Shown: piece by piece, positions 21,908 through 32,633 of the stretch
Position numbering within the stretch: the stretch's first letter is position 1
How the letters are laid out: every line of letters starts with the position of its first letter
Source of the DNA: Skermanella rosea
GTDB taxonomy: Bacteria; Pseudomonadota; Alphaproteobacteria; Azospirillales; Azospirillaceae
Direction of reading: 5' to 3'
Length of the DNA stretch: 64,000 nt
NCBI RefSeq assembly: GCF_016806835.2
Contig: NZ_CP086111.1
Location: 5,759,471-5,823,470 of the forward strand
Position numbers and translations under genes: made by a program
The notes under the pieces: generated by a model
What the model was told of the DNA's origin: nothing
Database searches by the model: none
What the model saw: the letters and a program-made list of their open reading frames with translations, nothing else

Positions 21908-23611
21908 TCAACGACGATACAAGGTCATCATCGGTTTCGTGCCGCGCGAGTAGTTTAGACCGCTAATTGTTTCTATGGCAATCGGTTGGAAGCCTTTCGC
22001 CTCGGCTTCGGCCAGGAAGGCGTCGTCCTGCGGCAGGTCGACCAGGGCCAGCGCACAGGCATCGTCCGCCAAGCGTTGGGCCGCCGTCCGGCCGTCGCCC
22101 GACAGCACCGTGCCGGTCCCGACCAGGAAGACGAGGCTGGGCTCGGTGAAGCCGACGGACACCAGGGTTGATCCGGGACAGGGCCGGGCCGCAGCGACCG
22201 CGGCGGCGACCCTGGGGCTGATCCAGATCTTCTCGATGCGGGGAAGGACGACCTGGAAGGTGAGGAGATACATCCCGACGGACCCGGCGCCCACCAGCGC
22301 GACAGACCGACGCAGCCCGCCCCGGTGGAACAGTAGGGCGCCGTAGCCGAGCACCGCCAGCACGGTCGCCGCGAGCAGCAGGGCCTCCGGATCGAGGGTC
22401 CATTCGACGACGGCGTAGAGGATCGCCATTCCGGCCGCGAGCACCGCCGAGATCAGGAGGAACAGCAGGATCGACAGAACCCGCAGCCAGCGCCGGCCGC
22501 CGCCGAACCCATCCAGCGCCGCGCGCGCGGTCAGCAGCGCCAGCGCCGGATAGGCCGGAAGCACGTAGTGGAACAGCTTGGTCGGCACCGCCTCGAACAC
22601 GATCCAGGTCGGTATCGCCCAGGCGAGGCAGAACACCACCGCCGGGTCCCGCCGGTTGGCCCAGACCCAGGGGATCGCCGGGATCGCCAGCAGGGACCAG
22701 GGCCAGAAGGTGACGGGAAACAGAAGGGTATAGTAGCCGGGCGGGAACCCCTTGGATTCCTGTCCTCCGGCGACCTTGGCCAGCATGTCATGGCCGACCG
22801 ACTCGGCGAAGAAGGCGCCCTGGGTCTTGATGGTGATCAGGACCAGCCAGGGTGCCACGACCAGGAGCAGCACCGGCAGCCCCAGCCGGGGCCTCAGCGG
22901 GGCCAGCCAGCCGACCCGCCGCTCGACGAGCGCCAGCCCCAGCGCGGTGCCGCCGACCACCAGCAGGATGATCGGCCCCTTCAGCAGGATGCCGATCCCG
23001 AGGGAACACCAGAACAGCAGGACGAGGCCGGTGGACAGCGCCTCGCGCCCGTCCCGGCGCAGCCATGCCTCCGCCAGCGCCGCCTGCGCCCCCAACACCG
23101 CCGCCAGCAGCGCCGCGTCCGTCTTGGCGGTGCGCGCCTCGACCGCGAGCAGGACCGTGCCCGCCAGCATCGCCGCGGCCAGGAACCCGGCACCCTGCCC
23201 GGCCCGCCCGCCGGCCGGCGGCCCGGAGAGGGGGCCGAACAGGGTCGACCCGATCCGGAAAGTCAGCAGGACGGCCAGGACGGCACCCGCCAGCGACGGC
23301 AGCCGGTAGGCCCAGATGGCGGCCTGCTCCGGTCCGCCCGCCAGCGCCACGGCGACGGACTGCATCCAGTAGATGCCGACCGGCTTCTTGTGCCTGGCCT
23401 CGTCCTGGAAGCGGATATCGACGAAGTCGCCGCTCTCCAGCATCTGCCGAGTCGCCTGGGCGAAGCGCGCCTCGTCCCGGTCGGTCGGCGGCAGCGTGAA
23501 GAAGCCCGGCAGGAACAGGACGAGGCAGAGCGCCGCCAGCGCCGCCGTCAGCCCGATCCGCTTGAGCATCGGCGGGAGCGGGTGCCCGGAGGAGGGGTCC
23601 ACGACGTTCAC
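21908..23611 (-). CDS. GT39-family glycosyltransferase (ArnT-like)
   Basis: A polytopic membrane glycosyltransferase of about 567 residues (GT-C fold). Residues near the N-terminus carry the first membrane helix and PPTDRDEARFAQATRQM, with the Asp/Glu pair conserved in ArnT/PMT enzymes; GFPPGYYTLLFPVTFWPWS is the family loop. It would move a sugar from undecaprenyl phosphate to an envelope acceptor such as lipid A. GTG at 23611 overlaps the stop of the LAB_N gene (GTGA); ATG at 23569 is the alternative. The C-terminal 100 residues form a periplasmic domain. Confidence 0.87.
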   Translation of the reverse strand: MNVVDPSSGHPLPPMLKRIGLTAALAALCLVLFLPGFFTLPPTDRDEARFAQATRQMLESGDFVDIRFQDEARHKKPVGIYWMQSVAVALAGGPEQAAIWAYRLPSLAGAVLAVLLTFRIGSTLFGPLSGPPAGGRAGQGAGFLAAAMLAGTVLLAVEARTAKTDAALLAAVLGAQAALAEAWLRRDGREALSTGLVLLFWCSLGIGILLKGPIILLVVGGTALGLALVERRVGWLAPLRPRLGLPVLLLVVAPWLVLITIKTQGAFFAESVGHDMLAKVAGGQESKGFPPGYYTLLFPVTFWPWSLLAIPAIPWVWANRRDPAVVFCLAWAIPTWIVFEAVPTKLFHYVLPAYPALALLTARAALDGFGGGRRWLRVLSILLFLLISAVLAAGMAILYAVVEWTLDPEALLLAATVLAVLGYGALLFHRGGLRRSVALVGAGSVGMYLLTFQVVLPRIEKIWISPRVAAAVAAARPCPGSTLVSVGFTEPSLVFLVGTGTVLSGDGRTAAQRLADDACALALVDLPQDDAFLAEAEAKGFQPIAIETISGLNYSRGTKPMMTLYRR

Positions 23612-23919
23612 GATGCCGACGCGTGCCCGATGTCGTCGGCAACCGCGTCGTCGCCGGCCGTTTTCCGCTTGTCGCGCCAGATCATCCAGATGTTGCGGGA
23701 ATAGATCACCAGCCCGAGCCCCTGCCCCAGGATGAACACCGGGTCCTGGCGATACAGGGCGTAGGCCAGCAGCGTGATCCCGCCGGTCATGCTGAAGTAC
23801 CAGAAGGTCTCCGGCACGAAGCTGCGCTTGAGGCGCTCGCTTTGGATCCACTGTATTATGAAGCGCATCGAGAACAGCGCCTGCCCCAAGAACCCGATCG
23901 CCGTCCAGACGGAGAGCAT
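23608..23919 (-). CDS. LAB_N (lipid-A-disaccharide synthase N-terminal) family membrane protein
   Basis: A 103-residue protein with about three hydrophobic helices and the family sequence GQALFSMRFIIQWIQSE followed by PETFWYFSMTGG. Such proteins carry the name of the LpxB N-terminal extension, but stand-alone forms travel with ArnT-like glycosyltransferases and GT2 enzymes. It is the middle gene of that trio here and overlaps the GT39 gene. A role in membrane sugar-lipid handling is inferred. Confidence 0.88.
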   Translation of the reverse strand: MLSVWTAIGFLGQALFSMRFIIQWIQSERLKRSFVPETFWYFSMTGGITLLAYALYRQDPVFILGQGLGLVIYSRNIWMIWRDKRKTAGDDAVADDIGHASAS

Positions 23920-23964
23920 TCAATCACCTGATAAAGCTGTATCGATGCCGCGCCATCGATCCGA

Positions 23965-24762
23965 TCAGCGGACCTGCCCGGCAAGGTCCTCGAGGACCGA
24001 GTCCGGCAGGCGGGTACGGCGTTTCAACCACAGGACTCCCATCAGATCCACGATGCCGATAGCCGCACGTCCCAGGTTGCCGTACTTCGACACGCCGCGC
24101 CGGCGGGGCCGATGGTTGACCTCGACGAAGTCGACCCGGTGCCCGTGGATCTGGAACAGCGCGGGAAGGAACCGGTGCATCGCCCCGAAATAGGGCAGAT
24201 CCAGGAAGGCGTCGCGGTGGAACACCTTGATGCCGCAACCGGTGTCGGCGCAGCCGTCGTTCAGGACGGCCTGGCGCAAGCCGTTGGCGATCTTCGTGGC
24301 GATCCGTTTGGACCAAACGTCGCGGCGCTTGCGGCGCAGCCCGCCGACCAGGGCCGGCGCGCCCGGCATCGTCGCCAGGTCCAGCAGGTTGGGAATGTCG
24401 GCCGGATCGTTCTGCCCGTCGCCGTCGAGCGTGGCGATCCAGGTCCCCCGGGCGGCCCGGACGCCGGTGCGTACCGCGGCGCTCTGGCCCGACCGGTTGG
24501 AATGCCGGACGACGCGCACGGCGCCCTGCTCCCGAGCGAGCCGGTCGGCGGTACCGTCGTCGCTGCAGTCGTCGACGAAGATCACTTCGTAGTTCACGGA
24601 CCCGGAGAGCGCCGCCCGGATCTCGGCAAGCAGCGGCAGGACGTTCTCGGCCTCGTTATAGACCGGAACGACCACCGAAAGCCGCGTCTCCGGCACCGGG
24701 GCGACGGCGGTGGGCAGGCTGCCGGCGGTCTGGACGGCATGGGAAGCGACGGTGGTGACCAT
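23965..24762 (-). CDS. GT2-family glycosyltransferase (polyprenyl-phosphate glycosyltransferase)
   Basis: A 265-residue GT-A enzyme. Residues 27-60 carry the start of the domain (LSVVVPVYNEAENVLPLL), VDDCSDDGT gives the donor aspartates, and LDGDGQNDP is the metal-binding DxD-type motif. SKYG and a C-terminal hydrophobic segment are as in dolichyl-phosphate mannose synthase and ArnC-like proteins. It would charge undecaprenyl phosphate with a sugar for the GT39 enzyme encoded downstream. It begins the operon, with about 180 bases of upstream sequence that include inverted 8-mers (24840-24847 / 24900-24907). Confidence 0.9.
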   Translation of the reverse strand: MVTTVASHAVQTAGSLPTAVAPVPETRLSVVVPVYNEAENVLPLLAEIRAALSGSVNYEVIFVDDCSDDGTADRLAREQGAVRVVRHSNRSGQSAAVRTGVRAARGTWIATLDGDGQNDPADIPNLLDLATMPGAPALVGGLRRKRRDVWSKRIATKIANGLRQAVLNDGCADTGCGIKVFHRDAFLDLPYFGAMHRFLPALFQIHGHRVDFVEVNHRPRRRGVSKYGNLGRAAIGIVDLMGVLWLKRRTRLPDSVLEDLAGQVR

Positions 24763-26111: not shown

Positions 26112-26198
26112 TGGTGCCCAGGAGAAGACTCGAACTTCCACGACATTTCTGCCACAGGTACCTGAAACCTGCGCGTCTACCAATTCCGCCACCTGGGC
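26112..26198 (-). tRNA. tRNA-Leu (anticodon CAG)
   Basis: On the minus strand the 87-base sequence folds as a class II tRNA. The acceptor stem is GCCCAGG / CTGGGC, with the D-arm GCGGAATTGGTAGACGC and the anticodon loop TTCAGGT, giving CAG (reads CUG, Leu). A long variable arm of leucine tRNA type follows, then the T-arm with TTCGAGT. The CCA end is encoded. A consensus-like promoter lies directly upstream. Confidence 0.95.
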
Positions 26199-26246: not shown

Positions 26247-27056
26247 TCAGCGCGGTTCGGCAAAAATATCGACATGGCCGACAAGGGCTTCCAGCGTTCC
26301 CGCCGCGGCAGCGGCCCGGCGGCGTTCGGCCCAGCCTTCGATGGCGGACGATTCGCCCTCCGGCGCGATCTCGAGCGCAGCACCGCGATAGCCCTCGATC
26401 AGGGCCAGGTGCATGGCGGCGTCGGCCGGTCCGATGATCCAGTCGCTTGCGGCGGTCTCGACCGCGAAGCCGCAGGCCCGCAGGGCATCGGCGAGGTGTC
26501 GCGGCGCTTCGGGTCCCAGGGCGGGACCGAAGCCCTTGTCGGTCGCCTGGTGGCGCTCGATCCAGCCGCGCACCGCCGCGTCCCCGGGATCCTCGGGCGA
26601 CCAGCGCAGCCGCCCGTCGACGCTCAGCGTGACCAGCACCGGCCTTGGAGCCGCGGCAAGGGCGGCCACGAAGCGGTCCATCCAGTCCGCCGAGACCAGA
26701 TCGAACAGGGCCGTCGCGACGACGGCGTCGAACTGCCGGAAATCCAGGCTCTCCAGGTCCCGCGACAGATCGACCCGGCGGGTCTCGAAGGCGGGCAGGG
26801 GATGCGCGCAGGCGGCCATTTCCGCCGCGGCCGTGTCGAGCAGGACGGGGTCGTGGTCGGCCAGCACCCAGCGCTGGCCGGGACGCCTCAGGCGGGGCGA
26901 CAGGTGGCGCAGGTTGGCGCCGGTGCCGGCGGCGAGGTCGAGCAGGCGCGGCTCGTCAGGCAGGGCCGCGGCGAGGCGCCGGGTCAGCGTGGCGTCGCGG
27001 GCGGCATCGTCGAACGGCGCCCGAAGCCGCAGCCAGTCGCGGTCGAAGCCGCCCAT
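26247..27056 (-). CDS. Class I SAM-dependent methyltransferase
   Basis: A 269-residue enzyme with motif I LLDLAAGTGANLRHL near residues 38-52, motif II region VLADHDPVLL and motif IV-like FDAVVATALFDLVS, all in the order of Rossmann-fold methyltransferases. The acceptor cannot be deduced. It is the last gene of the minus-strand operon with a reductase, dehydrogenase, pterin-synthase-like protein and glycosyltransferase, 19 bases after the latter. It is therefore likely the tailoring methyltransferase of the same small-molecule pathway. Confidence 0.85.
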   Translation of the reverse strand: MGGFDRDWLRLRAPFDDAARDATLTRRLAAALPDEPRLLDLAAGTGANLRHLSPRLRRPGQRWVLADHDPVLLDTAAAEMAACAHPLPAFETRRVDLSRDLESLDFRQFDAVVATALFDLVSADWMDRFVAALAAAPRPVLVTLSVDGRLRWSPEDPGDAAVRGWIERHQATDKGFGPALGPEAPRHLADALRACGFAVETAASDWIIGPADAAMHLALIEGYRGAALEIAPEGESSAIEGWAERRRAAAAAGTLEALVGHVDIFAEPR

Positions 27057-27075
27057 GTGGAAATCCCCCGAATGC

Positions 27076-28161
27076 TCAGTCGCCCGTGGCGCCCAGCCCC
27101 AGCCGGGGCTCCAGGACGGCCAGCTCGGCGGCGAAACGGTCGGCCGCGTCGTCCCAGGTCGGCAGGCGCCGGGCCGCCGACCGCGCCGCCCGGGTCAGGC
27201 GGGCGCGTAGCCCGGCGTCGGTCAGCATGCTCCGCAGCGCGTCCCGCAGCGCCTCGGCGTCGCCGGGCGGAACCAGGATCGCGGCATCCTCCGGCACGGT
27301 GGTCGGGATGGCGCCGGCCCGGGTGCTGACGATCGGCAGCCCGTGCGACAGGGCTTCCGCCAGCGCCATCCCGTATCCCTCAAAGTAGGAGGGCAGCACG
27401 AACAGGTCGGCGCCATGGTATTGGCTGGGCATCGCCGCGGGGCCGATCTCGTCCATCAGGGCGATCCTGCCGGTCAGCCCATGGCGCGAGATCGCGTCCT
27501 GCACCGCCGCGGCGGCCCCGGCATCGCGCGTGGTGCTGCCGATGCAGGTGAGTTTCCAGGGCAGGTCGGCAAGGCCGGCCAGGGCTTCGACCAGCAGCAG
27601 GTGACCCTTGCGCGGCGTGACGGTGGCGACGCACAGCAGGTTGGTCTCGGCCGTCCCGGAGCCGGCGGCCGGCGCCTCGGGCGGGTCGGTCCCGGGCTCC
27701 ACGACGCCCAGCCGGTCCGGCGTCACGTGGAAATCCGAGAGCAGCGCTTCCGCGGTATGGGGACTGGTCACGACCACGCGGTGGACGCGGGCGAGGCAGC
27801 CCTGTTCGAGCTGCCGCAGGGTGCGCGCCTGGGCCTCGTCCAGCCCGGTTTCCAGCGACAGGGGATGATGGACCAGCGCCATCAGGCGCAGCCGGTGGTT
27901 CTCGATCATCAGGCTGCCGGCGACGCCGGGCAGCGCCAGCCCGTCGATCACCGCCAGCGCGCCGTCGGGCAGGCGGGACAGCACGCGGTCGGCCTCGTAG
28001 ATCGCTTCCTGGTCGACGATGGGGTAGGGGCCCGGCAGCTCGTGGACATGGACCGGGATGCCACGCGCCCGCAGGCCCGCGACGATGCGGGCATCGTAGA
28101 TGTAGCCGCCGGTCTTCTGGTCGAGGCGGCCGGGCAGGACCAGATGGACGTCCAGGCTCAT
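27076..28161 (-). CDS. GT4-family glycosyltransferase in the pterin-like cluster
   Basis: A 361-residue GT-B enzyme. It opens [23 protein letters not shown] (the GGY acceptor loop of GT4), has [20 protein letters not shown] in the donor domain, and [28 protein letters not shown], where the glutamate/EGYG segment binds the nucleotide sugar. ATG at 28161 overlaps the upstream stop (ATGA), so it is coupled to the pterin-synthase-like gene. It likely glycosylates the product of this pathway or a carrier lipid. Donor sugar unknown. Confidence 0.86.
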
Positions 28162-28574
28162 CGAGCCGAATCCCCCTGGAGCGGACCCTCGAAGGTGGCC
28201 CAGGCGAGGTGGGACTCGTGCAGGGTGATCTTGAGGCCGTCGAGCTCCCGTCCGCCCTCGCCCAGCGCACCGTCCAGGATGCGGGCGCTCAGGCGGCGGT
28301 GGATCTCGCCGCACAGGAACTCGGTCGTCGTGTTGACGCCGGACAGCTCCTCGACCTCGTCCAGGTTCCGGTAGTTGAGCGGCTTCAGGACCTCGGCGAG
28401 CAGGGCGGCGGCCATCCCGATATCGACCACGAGGCCGTCGGCGTCGAGGCTCTGGCGACGCATCTCCAGGTCGCACACGAAGGTGGCGCCGTGGAGCTTC
28501 TGGGCCGGGCCGAACACCTCGCCCTTGAAGCTGTGGGCGATCATGATGTGATCCCGCACGGTCAGGCTGTACAT
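28158..28574 (-). CDS. 6-pyruvoyl-tetrahydropterin synthase / QueD-like protein with altered active site
   Basis: A 138-residue protein of the PTPS/QueD fold. First histidine (MIAHSF, His14), [11 protein letters not shown] and ITLHES (Glu120) align with family landmarks. Canonical QueD has a catalytic Cys four residues before the HGH zinc pair and an Asp-His dyad. Here the Cys position is Ala24, the second zinc histidine is Ala30, and the dyad reads Asn-Tyr (67-68). It is therefore probably not a standard 6-carboxy-tetrahydropterin synthase, but a distinct subfamily with another reaction. ATG at 28574 follows GGAGGA. Confidence 0.8.
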
Positions 28575-28599
28575 GGGCGTAGTCCTCCGTTCCGGTTCG

Positions 28600-29614
<1,015 letters not shown>

Positions 29615-29622
<8 letters not shown>

Positions 29623-30466
29623 GGAGATCGCAATCGAACAGGATGTCCGCTCCCAGGACGAAATGGCGCGACCTGGGCCGCAGGCCGCCGTCGATCGTCT
29701 CGATTTCCGGCAGGGTGAAGCTGGGCCGGCCGGAACCGAGGATCAGCGGCGCGACCGTGACCTGGAGCCGGTCGAGGCAGCCGGCCTGGAGGAAGCGGGA
29801 CACGGTCACGCCGCCCCCCTCGATGAAGACGAATCCCAGACCCCGGTCGGCCAGCAGCGCCAGGATGCCCGCGGGATCCAGCCCGGCGCCGCACCGGGGC
29901 AGCCCGACCACCTCCGCGGCGCCGACGCGCTCGCCGGGCCGCGCCAAGTCGTGGGCGCACAGCAGCAGGGTCGGGGCGGCGCCGTCGTGGAACAGTCCCT
30001 GGCTGCCGTCGAGCCGGCGGTTGGTATCGACCACGACCCGCACCGGGTTGCGTCCCTCGCACAGCCGGACGGTCAGCTTGGGATCGTCGTGCCGTACGGT
30101 GCCGGCCCCGACGAGGACGGCGTCGGACAGGGCCCGCATGCGGTGATTGTGCAGGATGTCCTCCGGGCCGGTCACCCATTGCGAGGCGCCGCATAGCGTC
30201 GCGATCCTGCCGTCCAGGCTCTGGCCCAGGTGGGCCACGGCGTACCGTCCGCGCGGAGCGCCGGCGCACAGGGGAAGGTAGAGATCGCACAGGAGGAGGC
30301 TATCGCCATCCGTCGGCCCGATGCCGCCCCGGATGTCGCCCGCGGTCGGCGGCACGGCCGGGCCGGATCCCGCCCGGCCATGCCTGAGGTCGAGGATCGT
30401 CCGCCAGAGCCGATCCGGATCGGAGGCGGGCGGCGAGCCCGCGAGGGAGGGTTCGGTACTATCCAT
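29615..30466 (-). CDS. RibD C-terminal-type reductase
   Basis: A 283-residue protein whose second two-thirds is a RibD_C / dihydrofolate-reductase-fold reductase: VAHLGQSLDGRIAT, SDAVLVGAGTVRHDDPKLTV (NADPH site), FIEGGGVTVSRFL and VAPLILGSG. RibD reduces the ribosylamino-pyrimidine in riboflavin synthesis. The deaminase domain of RibD is missing, replaced by an N-terminal 75-residue stretch without clear motifs. ATG at 30466 is the best start. It heads the minus-strand operon and faces a CDP-alcohol phosphatidyltransferase gene across about 110 bases. Confidence 0.86.
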
Positions 30467-30575
30467 GATCAAGCCCTACCAATTGCCTTCTCCGCCCCGC
30501 TTTACCAGTCCCCCGTTCAAGGTAATTCCCGCGGGCGTCCATCGACAGGACCCGGGCCCTTTACCATCGCATTTT

Positions 30576-31433
30576 ATGCACCAATTATCGTCAATGGCTT
30601 ACGGATCGACCGACAGCGCCGACAGGGAACCCGGGCAGGGAATGCCGGCGACGGCTCGGCTTTTCCTCAGCGTCGCCCTGCACGTGGCGGCGGGCGCCGT
30701 CGTGACGGCGGGAGCGGCGGTGGCGCTGGGCGATCTGGCCGGCCTGCCCGGCCTCTATCCCCTGACCGCCATGGGCTGCTACGCGGTCGTCGCGGTGCTG
30801 ATGCTGCTCCACCTCCGCGGGCACGCGCCCCATTCCCGTTTCGGCGCCGCCAACCGGGTGACGCTGCTGCGCGGCGTGATCGCCAGCCTGATCGGCGGGA
30901 CGATCCCGGTGATCCCGCATCTCTCGCCCGAAGCGCTGTGGGTCGTCTCGCTGGCGGCGCTGCTGGCGCTGGTGCTGGACGGGGTGGACGGGTGGATCGC
31001 CCGGCGGACGCGGATGGCGACCGCGTACGGCAAGCAGCTGGACATCAATTTCGATACGGTCCTGATGGGCATCCTCGCGGTGCTGGCGTGGCAGGACGGC
31101 AAGGCGGGCGCCTGGGTGCTGGCGATCGGGCTGGCGCGCTACGGCTTCGTCGCCGCCGGCTGGGTCTGGCCCATGCTGAACGCCGAGCTGCCGTTCAGCC
31201 AGCGGCGCCGCGTCATCTGCGTCGTGCAGATCGCGGTCCTCCTCGCCTGCATCCTGCCGGTAATCCAGCCGCCGCTCAGCAGCCTTGCGGCCGCAGCGGC
31301 ACTTGGCCTTTTGCTTTTCTCCTTCGCGGTCGATACGCTTTGGCTGGTGAAGGCCGGCGCGGTCGATGGCACGCGGATGGACGGGTATCGCGACAGGGAC
31401 CCCGCCGCCGGCCCTTCCCGGACCGATATCTGA
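30576..31433 (+). CDS. CDP-alcohol phosphatidyltransferase family protein
   Basis: An integral membrane enzyme of about 285 residues with six or so hydrophobic helices. The complete CDP-alcohol phosphotransferase motif is present: Asp135-Gly136, Asp138-Gly139, Ala142-Arg143, Gly152, Asp156 and Asp160. Such enzymes transfer a phosphatidyl (or other phospho-) group from a CDP-activated donor to an alcohol. The start is uncertain: ATG at 30576 is used, with ATGs at 30594 and 30642 also possible; no clear ribosome site is seen. It is 39 bases before the GTP cyclohydrolase gene, suggesting co-expression. Confidence 0.82.
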   Translation: MHQLSSMAYGSTDSADREPGQGMPATARLFLSVALHVAAGAVVTAGAAVALGDLAGLPGLYPLTAMGCYAVVAVLMLLHLRGHAPHSRFGAANRVTLLRGVIASLIGGTIPVIPHLSPEALWVVSLAALLALVLDGVDGWIARRTRMATAYGKQLDINFDTVLMGILAVLAWQDGKAGAWVLAIGLARYGFVAAGWVWPMLNAELPFSQRRRVICVVQIAVLLACILPVIQPPLSSLAAAAALGLLLFSFAVDTLWLVKAGAVDGTRMDGYRDRDPAAGPSRTDI

Positions 31434-31472
31434 CAGCCCGCTCCACTTTTCACGGACATCAAGAAAAGAACG

Positions 31473-32633
31473 ATGACCTCCCCCAGTCTCGCCAAACTGA
31501 CGGACGACCTGTCCCAACCCCTCGATCAGACCGCCCTCCGGTCGGTCGATCGTGCGATCGGCGAGCTGCGGCGCGGCGATCCCGTCCTAGTGGAGGATCT
31601 GGAGGGTGGGCTCGCCCTGGCGCTGTCGGTGGAGGCGGTGACCGCGGAGGCGCTGGAGGAACTCAGGAAATCGGCCGGCTCCGCCCCGGTGCTCGCCGTC
31701 ACCCGGCCCCGGGCGGTCGCGATCGGGCTGCCCGGGCAGCAGGCGCCCGTGGTCACGCTGGCCCTGACCGGCGGCTTGGATGCCGACGCGATCCACGCGC
31801 TGGTCGATCCGACCCGGCGGACCCCCCAGGGTCCCGGCCCGGCCCTGAGCGTGGCGCCGGCCGAGCTGGGAACCCGCGAGGGAGCGGCGGTGGCGCTGGC
31901 CAAGCTGGCGCGCCTGCTGCCGGCCGCCGTCGTCGCTCCTGTCAGGCTGCCGCGCGGGGCCAGCGCCGGGACCTGGGCCGCCAAGCACGACCTGATGCTG
32001 GTGCGGGCCCGGGACATCCTGGACTACCAGACCCATGCGGCGCGGACGCTGACGCTGGTCGGCGATGCCGCGGTGCCGCTGGTCGATGCCGAGAACACGC
32101 GCGTGCTGGCCTTCCGCCCGCCCGACGGCGGGGTCGAGCATCTGGCGATCGTGATCGGCGATCCCTCCGCCGAGGACGGCCCGGCGCTGGTCAGGCTGCA
32201 TTCCGAATGCTTCACCGGCGACCTCCTGGGATCGCTCCGCTGCGACTGCGGCGACCAGTTGCGCGGCGCCATAGCGGAGATCGCCCGCCAGGGCAGCGGC
32301 GTCGTGCTCTACCTGGCGCAGGAGGGCAGGGGCATCGGGCTGGTCAACAAGCTGCGGGCCTACCAGCTCCAGGACGAGGGATTCGACACGGTCGAGGCCA
32401 ACGAGATGCTGGGGTTCGACGCCGACGAGCGCATATACCTGCCGGCGGCGGAGATGCTGCGGCAACTGGGTTTCTCCCAGGTGCGGCTGCTTACCAACAA
32501 CCCGGACAAGCTGCGCCAACTGGCGCGCTGCGGGATCGAGGTGATCGACCGGGTGCCCCACGTCTTCCCCAGCAACGGCCACAACGAGGCCTATCTGAAA
32601 ACCAAGGCCGAACGCAGCGGCCACATGTTCTGA
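31473..32633 (+). CDS. ribA: GTP cyclohydrolase II (RibBA-like, degenerate RibB half)
   Basis: A 386-residue protein. The C-terminal half (about 190-386) is a full GTP cyclohydrolase II: zinc cysteines Cys246, Cys257 and Cys259 in SECFTGDLLGSLRCDCGDQL, EGRGIGLVNKLRAYQLQ, and LLTNNPDKL. It opens the imidazole ring of GTP for flavin- or pterin-like products. The N-terminal half has the length of dihydroxybutanone-phosphate synthase but lacks its DxDRENEGD active-site strand; that place reads PVLVEDLEGG. It may be the housekeeping RibA or a pathway-specific copy. Downstream is a strong hairpin. Confidence 0.88.
   Translation: MTSPSLAKLTDDLSQPLDQTALRSVDRAIGELRRGDPVLVEDLEGGLALALSVEAVTAEALEELRKSAGSAPVLAVTRPRAVAIGLPGQQAPVVTLALTGGLDADAIHALVDPTRRTPQGPGPALSVAPAELGTREGAAVALAKLARLLPAAVVAPVRLPRGASAGTWAAKHDLMLVRARDILDYQTHAARTLTLVGDAAVPLVDAENTRVLAFRPPDGGVEHLAIVIGDPSAEDGPALVRLHSECFTGDLLGSLRCDCGDQLRGAIAEIARQGSGVVLYLAQEGRGIGLVNKLRAYQLQDEGFDTVEANEMLGFDADERIYLPAAEMLRQLGFSQVRLLTNNPDKLRQLARCGIEVIDRVPHVFPSNGHNEAYLKTKAERSGHMF

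Follow-up and report, generated by a model that had tools for sequence, protein, structure and literature searches.

What a bacterium makes with seven adjoining genes that place a GTP-opening enzyme beside reductases, a glycosyltransferase, a methyltransferase and a phospholipid-type transferase is the question raised by a locus of Skermanella rosea. The locus lies in a stretch of 64,000 nucleotides (contig NZ_CP086111.1 of assembly GCF_016806835.2, positions 5,759,471 to 5,823,470), referred to here as the window, and encodes GTP cyclohydrolase II (GCH II), a CDP-alcohol phosphotransferase (CDPA), a RibD-type reductase, a dehydrogenase of the MDR superfamily, a T-fold protein of the PTPS family, a GT4 glycosyltransferase and a methyltransferase. 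All seven open reading frames were confirmed, at the positions and with the families given in an initial annotation, by the open reading frame list and by Pfam and NCBIfam profile matches. The seven genes form a conserved unit. Best supported is a dedicated pathway that very probably leads from ring-opened GTP to a pyrimidine or pterin bearing a sugar and a methyl group; we slightly favor the fuller proposal that this pathway is widely inherited, departs from the first riboflavin intermediate and ends, in lineages with CDPA and S. rosea among them, in a phospholipid head group.

Conservation and spread of the gene set

The MDR gene was used as the marker of the set and was present in 45 of 385 genomes (33 of 276 genera) drawn evenly from the class Alphaproteobacteria, and in 23 of the 82 genomes of the window's family. 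Among named relatives, those nearest to the MDR protein came from Skermanella (82% and 80%). Partner genes were counted within 10 kb of the 43 MDR loci lying outside the window's genus in the evenly drawn genomes, some of which stop at contig ends yet enter the counts. The core partners were PTPS (42/43), the glycosyltransferase (40/43), the methyltransferase (36/43) and the RibD-type reductase (34/43), followed by GCH II (16), CDPA (12), YceI (12), cytochrome b561 (9), a creatininase (8), an FkbM methyltransferase (6) and an LtaS/EptA-like protein with an AlkP-type domain (5). MDR and PTPS were at most 200 bp apart in 41 of the 43 loci, and the glycosyltransferase lay within 1.5 kb of MDR in 40, so that the clustering exceeds chance. 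Two loci stand out (L136 and L137): one is an MDR gene without any modelled partner and the other an MDR gene with only a displaced PTPS. Pairwise distances among the MDR, PTPS, glycosyltransferase, methyltransferase and RibD-type proteins were correlated (r 0.72-0.93, calculated without a species-tree control). The initial annotation had treated the genes as one set and had named scattering of single genes across most relatives as the result that would speak against it; no such scattering occurred in the loci examined, and the reductase, glycosyltransferase and methyltransferase genes are supported as the core.

Beyond the class, a scan of named genomes for MDR returned 61 loci, including those of Skermanella, Acetobacteraceae, Rhodobacterales, Paractinoplanes, Sinomonas, Acidobacteria, Thioalkalivibrio and SAR11-type bacteria, and in most of them the other genes adjoin MDR. 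Related sets are found in Actinobacteria, Acidobacteria, Gammaproteobacteria, SAR11 and haloarchaeal plasmids. The PTPS profile was matched in 37 of 246 Actinobacterial genomes, and loci were taken from the best-scoring 20 of these 37, which are not a random sample; one further match, G462, is covered as L033. The 20 loci carried MDR, PTPS and the glycosyltransferase in 20/20 loci, the methyltransferase in 18/20 and the RibD-type gene in 7/20, together with a flippase-like gene (20/20), GCH II (19/20), CDPA (16/20), a creatininase (15/20) and the AlkP-type gene (7/20). Among plasmids, 26 records had a PTPS match and 15 of them were inspected; core genes lay beside PTPS in 8 bacterial and 4 haloarchaeal records, and not in 3 from Streptomyces (L210, L221, L222), where a PTPS of the same type as SCO6650 of Streptomyces coelicolor stood near sigma-70, cupin and BTAD-regulator genes. 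PTPS alone does not, therefore, prove the presence of the cluster. The haloarchaeal megaplasmids (L212, L218, L219, L220) encode MDR, a PTPS with the full set of zinc histidines and the methyltransferase, and in most cases the glycosyltransferase and CDPA as well.

Several neighboring genes were recorded alongside these sets. In Acetobacteraceae loci (for example L030) a gene for a DUF1537-type kinase, often with a class II aldolase gene, lies 3' of the core. Both were rejected as pathway genes, being confined to 1 of 36 MDR lineages and often accompanied by a flagellar P-ring gene, so that synteny within one lineage suffices to explain them. A PfkB-type kinase or ribokinase gene adjoins the core on two Rhodobacterales plasmids (L223, L224), one of which also carries a gene of the inositol monophosphatase family. 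SAR11-type and related clusters (L075-L077, L079-L081, L085, L087) are flanked by a gene for a SOUL heme-binding protein and a creatininase, and some contain a further gene whose product is about 855 residues long, with no Pfam match in the single one tested.

Probable opening of GTP and the reactions that may follow

Ring opening of GTP is probably the first step, as the initial annotation had suggested, because three kinds of observation converge on it. In the Haloarcula halophila cluster, CDPA and MDR flank a gene that is annotated as the archaeal GTP cyclohydrolase IIa and stands in place of GCH II. Among Actinobacteria, a creatininase-family gene was present in the fetched stretch in 16/16 clusters whose GCH II has Met or His instead of the active-site Tyr (L211, L225-L230, L232-L234, L236, L237, L239, L242-L244) and in 0/7 of those that keep the Tyr. 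Second copies of GCH II also occur: three Paractinoplanes and two Acidobacteria genomes encode a RibBA with intact motifs in addition to the cluster GCH II, and a pair of zinc-intact copies is present in each of two Rhodobacterales genomes. The RibBA of a third Acidobacteria genome did not match the zinc pattern.

Across the window's GCH II and 61 other cluster GCH II proteins, the three zinc Cys and the Arg are kept in 62/62 and the active-site Tyr in 46/62, the window's protein included; residue positions follow the E. coli numbering (Tyr105). Without this Tyr, the enzyme goes no further than the formylated intermediate. The formyl group of the ring-opened GTP compound is removed by BrbF, a member of the creatininase family, according to PMC9478397, which also describes a bacterial cyclohydrolase of this kind (GTP cyclohydrolase III) as still to be discovered. 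By its residues and gene neighborhood, the Met/His-type GCH II is a candidate bacterial GTP cyclohydrolase III, and the creatininase beside it a candidate for the matching formamidase. The window's GCH II has no intact RibB motif in its N-terminus, where the Pfam DHBP_synthase match was below cut-off, and was rejected as a bifunctional RibBA on that ground. An intact RibB motif is found in the riboflavin-operon copy of the same genome (L159:6616-7803; contig C1, near 287 kb), whose GCH II domain is without the zinc-cysteine pattern; the window's protein is the sole zinc-intact copy of the two.

In the RibD-type protein only RibD_C was matched in Pfam and no deaminase domain was found, which led to its rejection as a bifunctional RibD. 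Its solved relatives are riboflavin-type pyrimidine reductases, the second best being titled 2,5-diamino-6-ribosylamino-4(3H)-pyrimidinone 5'-phosphate reductase; given this relative and the missing deaminase domain, the product of the cluster would keep its 2-amino group. The MDR protein belongs to its superfamily as initially labelled, but departs from the usual dehydrogenase: its best NCBIfam match was BchC, under that model's cut-off, the CxGTD-type zinc-cysteine motif was present in 0/138 cluster MDR proteins, and 136/138 had a GTE motif at that site. A zinc-dependent MDR alcohol dehydrogenase was rejected because this catalytic motif is missing.

The PTPS-like label needs a qualification, since the protein belongs to a branch that does not have the complete zinc site. 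The structural model of the window's protein (mean predicted local distance difference test score, pLDDT, 91.9) was nearest to SCO6650 (PDB 3d7j), with a profile E value of 6e-59 and 61% identity at 0.7 A in the fold search, and it shares with the SCO6650 branch both the fold and the FGPAQ...HGAT motif. Two zinc His are kept in 138/138 cluster PTPS proteins; the third is Ala in 132/138, the window's included, and His in 6/138 (two bacterial, four haloarchaeal). An ordinary QueD or 6-pyruvoyltetrahydropterin synthase was rejected because the three-His zinc site is incomplete. These enzymes have in common with the cluster protein the T-fold and conserved Glu residues and differ from it in the third zinc ligand and in profile score, the window's protein reaching 35.5 with the NCBIfam QueD model against a cut-off of 89.25.

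It is very improbable that these are simply riboflavin or queuosine housekeeping genes that became neighbors by accident. Such an explanation would draw on the window's GCH II being the only intact copy in its genome and on the name 6-carboxytetrahydropterin synthase that the PGAP annotation gives to PTPS in plasmid records; against it stand a complete-looking riboflavin operon with a bifunctional RibD elsewhere in the genome, the zinc His missing from PTPS, and the recurrence of the set across phyla together with the glycosyltransferase, the methyltransferase and MDR. Least probable of all is a toxoflavin-like azapteridine antibiotic made from the GCH II product: GCH II, a RibD-like enzyme and a methyltransferase are common to the toxoflavin gene set, but PTPS, MDR, the glycosyltransferase and CDPA are not known to belong to it, the cluster also occurs in the small genomes of SAR11, and the annotation of 12 plasmid stretches with the cluster, where toxoflavin genes themselves were not searched for, shows neither a WD-repeat nor a TPR protein adjoining the core.

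From the gene content, conservation, co-occurrence and active-site residues described above and below, we infer each of the following reactions, their order and their product. GCH II would open GTP to 2,5-diamino-6-ribosylamino-pyrimidinone 5'-phosphate; in other lineages a cyclohydrolase halting at the formylated compound would act together with a creatininase-family formamidase. The RibD-type reductase would convert this to the ribityl compound without deamination, retaining the 2-amino group. The zinc-free MDR and the SCO6650-type T-fold protein would alter the side chain, perhaps with closure of a pterin ring; in one fitting scheme, offered as a guess, the ribosyl group would be reduced, the neighboring hydroxyl oxidized by MDR and the ring closed on the T-fold protein to give a dihydropterin. 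A sugar would be added by the GT4 enzyme and a methyl group by the methyltransferase, and CDPA could then couple the product to a lipid phosphate. A flippase-like protein (in Actinobacteria and Rhizobiaceae) and the LtaS/EptA-like membrane protein may move or transfer the product outside the cytoplasmic membrane. The end product would be a phospholipid of a glycosylated, methylated diaminopyrimidine or pterin.

The CDP-alcohol phosphotransferase and a possible lipid branch

The window's CDPA matches the motif D-x2-D-G-x2-A-R-x8-G-x3-D-x3-D, in which D, DG, R, G, D and D were invariant in 18/18 sequences and A was present in at least 90%. It thus carries the full catalytic motif of PgsA, PssA and choline phosphotransferase, but did not reach the NCBIfam cut-offs for members of the CDP-alcohol family and gave weak profile matches to the solved members. 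Strong matches to the CDPA profile (>170 bits) were obtained in 23/45 MDR-bearing genomes of the class, of which 8 had contributed rows to the profile and 15 had not, and in 0/20 MDR-less genomes, where nothing exceeded 60 bits. The LtaS/EptA-like protein was distributed in the same manner, in 23/45 MDR-bearing genomes (3 of the 23 being in its profile) and 0/20 MDR-less genomes. CDPA and this protein occurred together in 22 genomes, CDPA alone in one (G284), the AlkP-type protein alone in one (G144) and neither in 21.

The LtaS/EptA-like protein consists of membrane helices followed by an AlkP-type domain in which Glu, Ser, His and Asp-His are invariant, a layout shared with the LtaS and EptA head-group transferases. 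No NCBIfam match was found in the 3 members tested. Its structural model (mean pLDDT 80.6) gave LtaP, LtaS, MCR-1, EptA and GacH as the best fold matches, at only 10-17% identity among the matches listed. Where CDPA stands apart from the core, 6 of 7 places were beside a YceI, FkbM, GCH II or AlkP-type gene. In MDR-bearing genomes 18 of 48 YceI copies, counted by hand, were no more than 10 kb from MDR or CDPA, against about 0.2 expected; the window's genome has a single YceI, not near the cluster. For cytochrome b561, surveyed in the genomes other than the window's (G000) and G080, 10 of 126 copies, again counted by hand, lay within 10 kb of MDR, against an expectation of about 0.6 that was computed from 128 copies.

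Taken with its partners, from which the lipid substrate is deduced, CDPA would mark a lipid branch of the pathway, and a lipid end product in the CDPA-bearing lineages is somewhat probable. Transfer of that product to the outer side of the membrane falls a little short of even chances. The attachment to phospholipid considered in the initial annotation is supported as a branch, with a qualification: CDPA, which is inherited together with the LtaS/EptA-like protein, was found in roughly every second carrier, so that the lipid step would be confined to some lineages.

The alternative that survives best is a soluble glycosylated and methylated pterin or pyrimidine, comparable to the pterin glycosides of green sulfur bacteria and cyanobacteria, with CDPA and the LtaS/EptA-like protein belonging to another lipid system. 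The core is kept in the 22 of 45 MDR-bearing genomes that have no CDPA of this family anywhere, which also weighs against the lipid reading, and neither the GT4 enzyme nor the methyltransferase requires a lipid. Set against this are the absence of both CDPA and the LtaS/EptA-like protein from the 20 MDR-less genomes and the placement of CDPA, in three phyla as well as in haloarchaea, within the core or next to it, and we regard a purely soluble product as unlikely, though it is the most serious of the rival explanations.

Other observations also weigh against the proposed GTP-derived lipid pathway. The LtaS/EptA-like gene of the window's genome is far from the cluster and without other modelled genes around it, and the fold of its protein is matched loosely, sulfatases scoring nearly as well. 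The flippase-like family is found in 18/45 MDR-bearing and in 8/20 MDR-less genomes of the class, and for the latter reason was rejected as a class marker. The place of GCH II in the initial annotation needs to be narrowed: it is the likely first enzyme of the pathway, but it also serves riboflavin synthesis, which must use the window's copy since no other in the genome is zinc-intact, and its family is present in MDR-less genomes as well, so that it is not cluster-specific and was rejected as a marker. A creatininase occurs in 13/39 Tyr-type clusters outside Actinobacteria too, and the RibD-type gene was not in the fetched stretch in 14/16 of the Met/His-type Actinobacterial clusters. Fisher and Poisson values ignore kinship, and none of the statistics is kinship-corrected.

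A wider extrapolation from the proposed lipid pathway is doubtful: several bacterial phyla and haloarchaea might produce a phospholipid based on a diaminopyrimidine or tetrahydropterin with sugar and methyl groups. It would be flipped outward, its phospho-head group moved by the LtaS/EptA-like enzyme or carried by YceI, and kept reduced by cytochrome b561, as a redox-active and perhaps light-absorbing lipid cofactor that does, outside the cytoplasm, work now ascribed to quinones.

Locus layout, related systems and significance

The genes are arranged as two divergent units, as the initial annotation had described (Table 1). On the minus strand the order is RibD-type reductase, MDR, PTPS, GT4 and methyltransferase, with adjacent genes overlapping or 19-25 bp apart; CDPA and GCH II form a plus-strand pair across a gap of 109 bp, for which no Rfam match was found. 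Start codons were our choice among the possible starts, and for PTPS a longer alternative is possible at 28616. A tRNA-Leu gene (26112-26198, minus strand) lies downstream of the methyltransferase and was the only match in Rfam at E up to 1 between 25500 and 34500; no riboswitch was found there, and control by a riboswitch was rejected on this basis. Adjoining the cluster, positions 21908-24762 presumably encode, judged by eye, a GT39/ArnT-type transferase, a small LpxB-N-like membrane protein and a DPM1-like glycosyltransferase.

Table 1. Features of the S. rosea locus, in window positions, and the partner gene elsewhere in the genome
Feature	Position	Strand	Basis
Class I S-adenosylmethionine-dependent methyltransferase, 269 aa	26247..27056	-	Pfam Methyltransf_25, E 1.7e-6
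GT4 glycosyltransferase, 361 aa, ATG 28161	27076..28161	-	Pfam Glyco_trans_1_4, E 6e-26
PTPS-like T-fold protein, SCO6650 branch, 138 aa, ATG 28574	28158..28574	-	Pfam PTPS
MDR-superfamily dehydrogenase, BchC-like, without zinc-cysteine motif, 340 aa, GTG start	28600..29622	-	
RibD-type reductase, no deaminase domain, 283 aa, ATG 30466	29615..30466	-	Pfam RibD_C, E 1e-39
109-bp gap between divergent units, presumed promoter region	30467..30575	.	Position only
CDP-alcohol phosphotransferase (CDPA), 285 aa	30576..31433	+	Pfam, E 9e-14
GTP cyclohydrolase II (GCH II), degenerate RibB-like N-terminus, 386 aa	31473..32633	+	Pfam, E 1.5e-58
LtaS/EptA-like partner, about 1.37 Mb from the cluster	C1:4415550-4417229 (window's genome)		Profile search and catalytic residues

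In Streptomyces (for example L226) the gene order is PTPS, glycosyltransferase, methyltransferase, flippase-like gene, creatininase and GCH II. Compared with this arrangement, the window's GCH II keeps its Tyr, a RibD-type gene is present, and there is no local creatininase or flippase-like gene. By counting of locus numbers the Streptomyces order appears to fit SCO6650-SCO6655, in which case SCO6652 would be the methyltransferase; SCO6655, near SCO6650 by its locus number, is a GCH II homologue. The SCO6650 protein reportedly contained no zinc and had no PTPS activity. One passage of PMC2853524 names SCO6655 in a group of genes whose expression is described as mostly upregulated in stationary phase, and SCO6652 appears with raised values in differentiated mycelium in a table of PMC3610822. 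The early riboflavin pathway (GCH II or archaeal GTP cyclohydrolase III, the formamidase ArfB or BrbF, the chemistry of BrbF being described in PMC9478397, and the pyrimidine reductase) has the cyclohydrolase, creatininase and RibD-type families in common with the cluster, which differs in having no deaminase, lumazine synthase or riboflavin synthase and in adding PTPS, MDR, the glycosyltransferase, the methyltransferase and CDPA.

The initial annotation knew of no described pathway with this set, and likewise no description of the gene set, its product or its neighbors as a pathway was found in open-licence papers. The individual families are known; the combination and the product class proposed here match no pathway known to us. 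MDR, the marker of the set, was present in 45 of the 385 genomes drawn evenly from the class, and the set is met again in Actinobacteria, Acidobacteria, ocean SAR11 and haloarchaeal plasmids. The pairing of Tyr loss with creatininase in Actinobacteria offers a candidate for the bacterial GTP cyclohydrolase sought in the passage of PMC9478397 cited above. If the product is a GTP-derived phospholipid, it would represent a new class of membrane lipid or of cofactor outside the cytoplasm, and the orphan structure SCO6650 would gain a testable role.

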